From Calditrichia bacterium (GTDB lineage: Bacteria; Calditrichota; Calditrichia; RBG-13-44-9; J075): DNA of 64,000 nt. Under the pieces are notes generated by a model. It was not told the DNA's origin and made no database searches. It was given only the letters and a program-made list of their open reading frames with translations. Shown piece after piece: positions 1,859 through 9,442 of the stretch. The translations under genes were made by a program, and so were the position numbers. The DNA lies in contig JANQQU010000082.1 in NCBI GenBank assembly GCA_028284905.1, forward strand, positions 62,001 to 126,000, read 5' to 3'. How positions within the stretch are numbered: position 1 is the first letter of the stretch; each line of letters starts with the position of its first letter.

Positions 1859-2533
1859 ATGGCCGCCTGGTTTGGCTCTCCGAAAGACAAAGATTCCAAA
1901 GATAGCGATAAGAATAACCAAAACGCTCCGGATAATAATGATGAGAAAACACCATTATTAACCATAACGGATATCGCCCGCGAAAAGGTTACACAGTTAA
2001 TCAGTGGTGCAGAATCCCCGGTGTTGGGCATTAGGGTTTTGGCAGAAGCAACATCTCCGGTAAATCCGGAATATAGCTTAGCCTTTGTTCAGGAAGGTGA
2101 AGCATTCGAAGACGATGAAATAATCGATTTTGACGATTTCAAAGTGTACATTGATTCCGATAGTCTCCCACTGGTAGAGAATGTCCGGCTGGACTTTATC
2201 ACAACCGGCATGGGAGGTGGATTCAGAATTGACAAAGTTGTTCAGCGCAATAAGGTAGAAGGCCCGGTTGCCGAAAAGCTCCAGCAGGTCATTGATGAAC
2301 AAATCAATCCGGCATTGGCGCTTCATGGTGGCTTCGTTGAGTTATTAGATGTTAAAGGCAGTACTGCCTATATTGAGCTGGGGGGTGGCTGCAAAGGGTG
2401 TGGCATGGTAGACGTCACGCTTAAGCAGGGGATTGAAGTGATGATCAAACAGAATATTCCGGAAATTACCGAAATTCTGGATGCAACCGATCACGCCAGT
2501 GGTAATAATCCCTATTATCAGCCCTCAAAGTAG
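1859..2533 (+). CDS. nfuA: NfuA-type Fe-S cluster carrier (degenerate A-type domain + NifU C-terminal domain)
   Basis: 224 aa. After a charged, low-complexity N-terminus (about residues 8-30) comes an IscA/HesB-like fold (about 33-128) that lacks the cluster-binding cysteines of true A-type proteins. A NifU C-terminal domain (about 136-212) follows, with the cluster ligands C178 and C181 in GGGCKGCGMVDVTL. This two-domain order is that of E. coli NfuA, which carries [4Fe-4S] clusters to apoproteins and helps under oxidative or iron stress. The AGGAAG ribosome site fixes the ATG at 1859. The next gene encodes a radical SAM enzyme, a plausible client, but that link is inference. The acidic/basic N-terminal tail is longer than in E. 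coli NfuA. Confidence 0.85.
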   Translation: MAAWFGSPKDKDSKDSDKNNQNAPDNNDEKTPLLTITDIAREKVTQLISGAESPVLGIRVLAEATSPVNPEYSLAFVQEGEAFEDDEIIDFDDFKVYIDSDSLPLVENVRLDFITTGMGGGFRIDKVVQRNKVEGPVAEKLQQVIDEQINPALALHGGFVELLDVKGSTAYIELGGGCKGCGMVDVTLKQGIEVMIKQNIPEITEILDATDHASGNNPYYQPSK

Positions 2534-2650: not shown

Positions 2651-4051
2651 ATGAATGTTTCCCCAGTGAAGATTTTACTCCTTTCGTTTTACGAGTTAGG
2701 TCGACAGCCATTTGGTATAGCCTCCCCCGCTGCTTGGTTACGTGCTGATGGGCACCTTGTTAGCGTAACGGACTGTTCGATTGAGCCGTTGCCTTTACAA
2801 GCCGTCCGTGAAGCAGACCTGATCGCATGTTATGTCCCTATGCATACTGCTACCCGCCTGGCAATCGAATCCCTGCAGGAAATCAAGACCGTTAATCCCA
2901 ACGCCCACCTCTGTTTCTATGGCCTCTACGCCCCTGTCAATGAAGAGTATCTGCGCAATAATGGTGTTCATACCATTCTCGGCGGAGAGTTTGAAGCCGG
3001 TTTGGCGCAATTGGCAAAACGGCTGGAGCAACAGTCTGCCACACAACCGCAGCAGGAATCTGTTATTTCCCTGGAGCGCCAGCAATTTGTAATGCCGGAC
3101 CGCGCCGATATGCCCGACCTGGACAACTATGCCCGTTTATGTGCCGGCAATGGTCAGGATAAAATTACCGGTTACGTCGAAGCAACCCGCGGATGCAAGC
3201 ATCTTTGCCGCCACTGCCCAATTGTTCCCGTATATAATGGCCGCTTTCGCATTGTGCAACAGTCAGTTGTCTTAGCCGATATTCGTCAGCAAATAGCAAA
3301 GGGTGCAACGCATATTACCTTTGGCGACCCGGACTTCCTGAATGGACCGGGCCATGTATTGCCGATTGTTGAAACTCTTCACCAGGAGTTTCCGGAAATC
3401 ACCTATGATGTTACCATCAAAGTGGAACATCTTCTCAAATATAGCCGGCATTTGCCAACACTGCGGGATACCGGCTGCCTGTTTATTACCAGCGCCGTAG
3501 AATCGGTTGATGACCAGGTCTTGCAAATTCTCGATAAGGGTCATACCCGGGCAGATTTCATTGAGGCCGTTCGTATTGTCCGGGAGACCGGAATTCATCT
3601 CAATCCGACCCTGGTTGCCTTTACTCCATGGTTATCCCTGGAGGGCTATTTTACAACGCTGCAATTGATGGCCGAGCTTGATCTTGTCGAGAGCATCTCC
3701 CCGGTACAATGGGCAATTCGTTTGTTGATTCCCAGCGGCTCTCGCCTGTTATCGCTGCCGGAAACCCAACAATACCTTGGAAAATTTGATGCGCATGCTC
3801 TCGGCTACGAATGGACACACCCTGATCCACGAATGGATCTCCTCTATGAAAATGTGCGAAAAATTGCTGCCGGAAAAGCCTCGCGCAAGAATGTATTTAA
3901 AGAGATTTGGGCGCAAACGACAAAACTTTTAGGCATCTACGCCGAGATTCCTGAAAACAGTTATGATTATGAACGGACCGCCGTGCCATACCTTAATGAA
4001 CCCTGGTATTGTTGAGCGGAACCGACTGAAGAGCAGTTGGCTCGTATATAA
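2651..4051 (+). CDS. CUAEP-tail radical SAM selenoprotein (B12-binding-like N-terminus), UGA at 4013-4015 read as selenocysteine
   Basis: A standard reading stops at TGA 4013-4015 after 454 residues ending EPWYC. Reading on gives Cys-Sec-Ala-Glu-Pro-Thr-Glu-Glu-Gln-Leu-Ala-Arg-Ile and a TAA at 4049-4051 (466 aa). CUAEP/CCAEP is the C-terminal signature of a known radical SAM (seleno)protein family, recalled by name and not searched. Residues 1-125 form a Rossmann-like domain resembling B12-binding domains but without DxHxxG. The radical SAM core starts at C182-x3-C186-x2-C189 (TRGCKHLCRHCP), the [4Fe-4S]/SAM site. A stem-loop just past the UGA fits a bacterial SECIS. The reaction is unknown. 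The start is weakly defined, since no strong Shine-Dalgarno precedes ATG 2651. Selenocysteine use needs selA, selB, selC and selD elsewhere in the genome. Upstream neighbour: nfuA. Confidence 0.85.
4013..4045 (+). promoter_or_regulatory. Candidate bacterial SECIS element
   Basis: In RNA, the UGA is followed by a hairpin with stem CCGACUG/CAGUUGG (4022-4028 with 4034-4040, one G-U pair) and loop AAGAG (4029-4033). A lower GAG/CUC helix (4014-4016 with 4041-4043) is separated from it by a bulge. A stem starting at the UGA with a short, G-containing loop some 13-16 bases downstream is close to the bacterial SECIS model. It is also part of the coding sequence, as bacterial SECIS elements are. Confidence 0.6.
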
Positions 4052-9316: not shown

Positions 9317-9442
9317 AATGCCTTTGGCAATCTCTGGCTGGGTTGTGTAATGCCTTCGGCATATAACGTAGAATGATAAATGGATTCTACATAATGCCCT
9401 TGGCAATCTCTGGCTGGGTTGTGTAATGCCTTCGGCATATAA
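9317..9442. repeat. Two 50-bp direct repeats, 76 bp apart, in a 301-bp gap
   Basis: Copies at 9317-9366 and 9393-9442 differ at one base. Each ends in a mini-hairpin ATGCC-TTC-GGCAT. Between them lies a 7-bp inverted repeat GTAGAAT/ATTCTAC. The rest of 9300-9600 shows no gene. It looks like a REP-type intergenic repeat; a related ACGCC-TTC-GGCGT hairpin occurs at 41841-41853. Confidence 0.8.

Follow-up and report, generated by a model that had tools for sequence, protein, structure and literature searches.

A predicted CUAEP-tailed radical SAM selenoprotein from Calditrichota, its Sec/Cys exchange among relatives and its genomic association with an ATP-grasp enzyme

Introduction

Two radical SAM families of NCBIfam lie closest to the protein studied here. 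One is the CUAEP/CCAEP-tail radical SAM (seleno)protein family (NF040546), for which neither a use of the name nor a function was found in the searched literature, and which a 2026 review on the selenoproteins of prokaryotes does not mention in its main text (PMC13188914). The other is that of ArsL (NF040542), an enzyme of arsinothricin biosynthesis and the closest characterised relative, which transfers the 3-amino-3-carboxypropyl (ACP) group from SAM to As(III) (PMC8552651).

Here we analyse a stretch of 64,000 nucleotides from a Calditrichia bacterium (contig JANQQU010000082.1; hereafter the window), part of a genome assembly of 8.55 Mb in 93 contigs, in which a radical SAM gene runs through an in-frame TGA into a CUAEP tail. 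Because NCBIfam already names NF040546, this gene adds one member to an existing family and is no discovery in itself; it is the UUAEP and UCAEP variants found among its relatives and the link to an ATP-grasp gene that go beyond the family name.

Results

The gene, its tail and its family

When TGA is translated as a residue, the gene yields 466 aa and contains exactly one such codon (residue 455, 4013-4015). A Cys codon (TGT 4010) stands before it, and behind it come AEP, TEEQLARI and the stop TAA 4049-4051 (Table 1). The initial annotation had described a frame that stops at TGA 4013 just after a cysteine and continues as Cys-Sec-Ala-Glu-Pro to TAA 4049, and retranslation reproduced all of these coordinates; it had also warned that ordinary annotation would cut the protein at 454 aa and lose the motif, which is precisely what translation table 11 gives. 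The radical SAM cysteines that it had pointed out, C182/C186/C189, are present and invariant in 39 homologues. Besides this CxxxCxxC motif, W452, C454, position 455, E457 and P458 are invariant in the same set, 454 and 455 being the only further invariant cysteine positions and C276 nearly so. Judged by sequence, the final 12 residues that standard annotation discards are part of the enzyme. At the other end of the protein, the true start may lie a few codons 3' of ATG 2651, since most relatives begin near residue 6.

Table 1. Features of the locus (positions in the window).
Feature	Position	Strand	Basis
NfuA-like Fe-S carrier (HesB/Fe-S_biosyn and NifU domains)	1859..2533	+	Pfam/NCBIfam; neighbourhood clusters
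Radical SAM selenoprotein (predicted), CUAEP tail, 466 aa, Sec at residue 455	2651..4051	+	single in-frame TGA; NF040546, 640 bits (cut-off 500); Radical_SAM PF04055
CxxxCxxC motif C182/C186/C189, radical SAM [4Fe-4S] cluster ligands	3194..3217	+	sequence; invariant in 39 homologues
Tail codons TGT-TGA-GCG-GAA-CCG = Cys-Sec-Ala-Glu-Pro	4010..4024	+	sequence; TGA/TGC/TGT exchange in homologues
UGA predicted to be read as selenocysteine	4013..4015	+	Sec/Cys exchange, SECIS covariation, Sec machinery
Putative SECIS-type hairpin with loop AGUUG between apical arms at 4031-4034 (GAGC) and 4040-4043 (GCTC)	4029..4045	+	register kept with compensatory changes in Sec forms

Against NF040546 the read-through protein scores above the curated cut-off, over residues 8-464, and it carries both the CxxxCxxC motif and the C(U/C)AEP tail of that family, in line with the membership originally proposed for it. 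Among Pfam domains only Radical_SAM is recovered with confidence; the B12-binding match scores 19.6, under its gathering score of 32.1, so that cobalamin binding is doubtful. An AlphaFold model built on a 39-sequence alignment (mean pLDDT 90.9) finds its best PDB fold matches among the B12-type radical SAM enzymes OxsB (TM 0.67-0.69) and AprD4 (TM 0.65), and also TsrM and MgmA.

Two further accounts of the extended frame, chance and a genome-wide reassignment of UGA, were rejected. Of the 33 long open reading frames in the window, six terminate with TGA, and the continuations behind the five besides this gene (open reading frames of at least 200 aa) are unrelated.

Selenocysteine machinery

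The expectation that this organism makes selenoproteins was borne out by the source genome, in which selA, selB, selC and selD are all present. The selB gene (349.5 bits) is found with its neighbours in the frame, and the tRNA-Sec (73 bits) has the anticodon UCA. The selA gene (532 bits) is split, its N-terminus and remainder lying at the ends of two contigs (C46 and C28), which suggests that the two are contiguous in the actual chromosome or replicon. The selD gene (389 bits; G000:C21:22816-23739) contains an in-frame TGA, so that in this organism SelD, too, is probably a selenoprotein.

Exchange of selenocysteine and cysteine among relatives

Within Calditrichota, WYC-x-AEP is kept in all six members with a readable C-terminus, the window included (a seventh copy ends at a contig end and its tail is unreadable); no close relative was thus seen to end at this codon without AEP behind it. 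Five of the six have TGA at the Sec codon and one, a genome of the same order as the window organism (G028), has TGC. This genome has no selA and its tRNA-Sec match reaches only 49 bits, near the family threshold, whereas its Sec-form relatives have both.

A single-sequence query of the genome contigs gave no match, and an alignment query of the GTDB species genomes retrieved 80 loci from many phyla. The cysteine-codon homologues that had been anticipated are readily found there: the 75 readable tails comprise 52 TGA, 18 TGC and 5 TGT, the other five loci being one masked behind its TGA and four of a double or shifted form. Over 124 proteins the tail states are CC in 24, CU in 90, UC in 6 and UU in 4, which requires 15 changes on the tree; the CC state accounts for 13 changes, at least 8 of them forced by well supported branches. 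Gains and losses of Sec are indistinguishable on this tree because it is unrooted. Among 56 genomes checked, selA was found in all 32 with a Sec form, although G077 has only a fragment of it where a contig ends; of the 24 with a Cys form, 17 have the gene and 7 lack it (Fisher p = 0.0015).

Several relatives deserve separate mention. On a plasmid of Thermomicrobium roseum DSM 5159 (L220:8944-10380), the RefSeq CDS of the CUAEP protein stops exactly at the TGA, and C-TGA-AEPLED lies beyond the annotated end. Two near-identical genes with the same TGA-TCC (USEP) tail (L137:2281-3693 and L142:2797-4209) occur in metagenome-assembled genomes labelled Verrucomicrobia and Acidobacteria, reflecting either recent transfer or a binning or labelling error. 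Two further loci (L156 and L157) have another sequence behind AEP (PLADPEGS), which suggests a variant SECIS spacing.

A SECIS-type hairpin behind the UGA codon

The hairpin of Table 1 is visible only by comparing relatives: folded alone, the window tail gives no significant hairpin (z -1.1), RNAfold on the window sequence prefers an alternative 7-bp hairpin with arms at 4022-4028 and 4034-4040, and Rfam at gathering thresholds reports no RNA family in the window. With the first base of TGA taken as position 1, bases 19-22 pair with 28-31 (or 27-30). Of 94 Sec forms, 81 have an apical stem that runs for 4 bp or more without a break, versus 7 of 24 CC forms (p = 1e-7; p-values are to be read as indicative, the sequences being related and not independent). 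The arms of Sec forms differ from one another yet remain complementary (GAGC/GCTC, GACC/GGTC, GGTC/GACC, GATC/GATC, GGCC/GGCC). Measured against variants that encode an identical peptide with synonymous codons, folding is better in Sec forms (mean z -1.78, n=55) and no better in Cys forms (mean z -0.17, n=24); the pairing therefore tracks UGA and not the protein sequence. Eroded in most Cys forms and covarying in Sec forms, the hairpin has the comparative signature expected of a bSECIS-type element.

Double and shifted selenocysteine in Anaerolineae

Some Anaerolineae (Chloroflexota) read TGG-TAC-TGA-TGA-GCG-GAG-CCA at this site, with two adjacent UGA codons and a predicted Sec-Sec pair (UUAEP). 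This form occurs in four genomes (G040, G041, G042 and G398; loci L103, at about 9381-9386, L111, L115 and L201), and its genes have one SECIS-type hairpin behind both UGA codons. Six further genomes (L129, L180, L195, L199, L200 and L203) have UCAEP, encoded by TGA-TGT or TGA-TGC, with Sec first and Cys second. All four of these ten genomes that were checked have selA. In the tree the ten members form one group (SH-aLRT 93), in which the UU sequences branch around a supported UC clade (97), and the simplest reading of the order of tail states would be CU -> UU -> UC. No earlier description of UUAEP or UCAEP was found in the searched literature; one is possible in key papers on novel selenoproteins, which lie outside it.

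Genomic neighbourhood

Clustering of the neighbourhoods of 79 loci revealed one dominant neighbour, an ATP-grasp protein present in 42 loci and encoded directly 3' on the same strand in 26. It is composed of an ATP-grasp_4 domain and an LAL_C2 (L-amino acid ligase C-terminal) domain. Over 80 genomes, 53 of which carry the radical SAM gene, its gene was found in 47 of these 53 versus 1 of the other 27 (p = 3e-14); in the six remaining carriers no ATP-grasp was detected. In another Calditrichota genome (G031) the two genes are convergent and 265 bp apart; in the source genome the ATP-grasp gene lies on contig 85, and its product is 66% identical to the G031 protein. This co-occurrence supports a pathway shared by the radical SAM enzyme and an ATP-grasp enzyme of the L-amino-acid-ligase type. 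The link may already have been described, as Haft's selenoprotein papers lie outside the searched literature.

A DUF169 protein is encoded by the next gene in seven loci (L067, L073, L089, L099, L102, L128 and L134); two of these are in genomes without a detected ATP-grasp gene, and in four the ATP-grasp gene comes next. The NfuA-like gene lies directly 5' of the radical SAM gene in the window and in 10 relatives, and its product is likely a functional neighbour. Aconitase, YggX-like and pentose-phosphate genes were dismissed as partners, since they recur as local synteny only, mostly in Acidobacteria. An arsenic-resistance setting was likewise discarded, no ars gene being among the conserved neighbours of the 79 loci.

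Discussion

The sequence evidence identifies the window protein as a genuine NF040546 selenoprotein, with UGA 4013 predicted to be decoded as Sec. The converse reading, in which UGA is an ordinary stop and the AEP downstream a coincidence or a degraded remnant, is formally the standard one, and RefSeq does end the T. roseum homologue at the same TGA; it is nevertheless hardly credible against the retention of AEP behind TGA in many phyla, the cysteines at the same codon, the SECIS covariation and the occurrence of selA in all Sec-form genomes.

In the scheme that we favour, the organism's own SelA, SelB, SelC and SelD would decode UGA 4013, guided by the hairpin directly 3' of it, to give a radical SAM enzyme with a vicinal C-terminal Cys-Sec pair. 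Like its sister ArsL, the enzyme might cleave SAM non-canonically; a group derived from SAM (in ArsL, 3-amino-3-carboxypropyl) would pass to a soft acceptor that the Cys-Sec pair holds or activates, and the ATP-grasp ligase might then couple the amino acid so formed to a second one. As a whole, this combination of Sec recoding, an ATP-grasp pathway and ArsL-like chemistry is in our opinion very probably the best explanation of the data. The ArsL-like chemistry taken on its own, with its non-canonical SAM cleavage and transfer of a SAM-derived group to a soft acceptor, is advanced tentatively, by analogy, and the balance may well tip against it. Since no ars genes lie beside CUAEP genes, the acceptor need not be arsenic, which we do not favour. 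That the protein is ArsL itself is very improbable: NF040542 is its second-best NCBIfam match, but at 294 bits it falls under the cut-off of 450, and the protein has about 40 extra C-terminal residues, no RCCLKC tail and no adjoining ars genes.

For the Cys-Sec pair, the redox or metal role suggested in the initial annotation is plausible. An equally serious rival to acceptor binding, and one that we hold just as tentatively, is that the pair is a redox or adduct-resolving device: either a selenenylsulfide passing electrons, comparable to the Gly-Cys-Sec-Gly terminus in thioredoxin reductase, or a thiol/selenol at the C-terminus that makes and resolves a covalent intermediate in the manner of the mobile C-terminal Cys of RlmN/Cfr. 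Such a role would suit a vicinal pair 11 residues from the C-terminus whose positions 454 and 455 are the sole invariant cysteines outside CxxxCxxC (C276 nearly so), and the occurrence of Sec at either or both positions (CU, UC, UU, CC) fits a symmetric dithiol/diselenide couple; however, vicinal cysteines are found at the C-terminus of ArsL as well, whose acceptor, As(III), is thiophilic, and neighbourhood clustering revealed no conserved thioredoxin-like partner nearby. It is unlikely, in our view, that an auxiliary metal or Fe-S cluster is bound in part by C454/U455 together with C276. These are the sole other conserved cysteines, and a gene for an NfuA-like Fe-S carrier adjoins the radical SAM gene in the window and 10 other loci; yet they amount to only two or three candidate ligands, C276 is not invariant and Sec ligation of Fe-S clusters is rare.

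Returning to the ArsL-like scheme, we would extend it, with much reserve, to a widespread and hitherto unrecognised pathway that pairs a radical SAM enzyme bearing a vicinal Cys/Sec tail with an L-amino-acid-ligase-type ATP-grasp enzyme, and sometimes DUF169, its product possibly being a new SAM-derived, perhaps metalloid-containing, amino acid or dipeptide. In this pathway Sec may have shifted to the neighbouring residue by way of a double-Sec state (CU -> UU -> UC), and both positions of the pair would therefore be functionally equivalent selenium sites, the tandem UGA-UGA being decoded with one SECIS.

The window gene is a clean example of how standard annotation can cut a protein short exactly where it is conserved best, and the near-obligate ATP-grasp partner, together with the ArsL parallel, offers a concrete way into the reaction of the family. 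With CC, CU, UC and UU tails at one dyad, nature provides a series in which the contribution of selenium to a vicinal thiol site can be studied, and SelB-directed recoding gains a test case in the tandem UGA-UGA predicted to be read with one SECIS.

Comparison with known systems

No difference separates the window protein from NF040546, with which it shares a full-length match above the equivalog cut-off, the CxxxCxxC motif, the CUAEP tail and the Sec site; the family name itself omits the UUAEP and UCAEP tails that Anaerolineae relatives carry. The predicted fold resembles that of B12-type radical SAM proteins, the model being alike in fold to OxsB, AprD4, TsrM and MgmA at sequence identities of 15-18%. 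The partner shares its ATP-grasp_4 and LAL_C2 domains with the L-amino acid ligase/ATP-grasp enzymes BacD and dapdiamide synthase, but it scores only 57 bits against BacD and 51 bits against DdaF, far under their cut-offs.

The sister family ArsL likewise combines vicinal cysteines at the C-terminus with an ATP-grasp gene in its operons. ArsL-type plasmid proteins are 29-35% identical to the window protein over residues 6-417, with about 35% reached over residues 6-399; those examined end in RCCLKC and adjoin an ATP-grasp gene, with arsM beside two of the three. There are also differences: ArsL ends in RCCLKC about 40 residues earlier, has no Sec in the members seen and sits with arsM, ArsR and ArsN1 genes, whereas the window protein has the tail CUAEPTEEQLARI. 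As identity between the ATP-grasp protein in ArsL operons and the partner of the CUAEP enzymes is only about 24-28%, the likeness between the two systems is suggestive of a shared pathway logic and goes no further.
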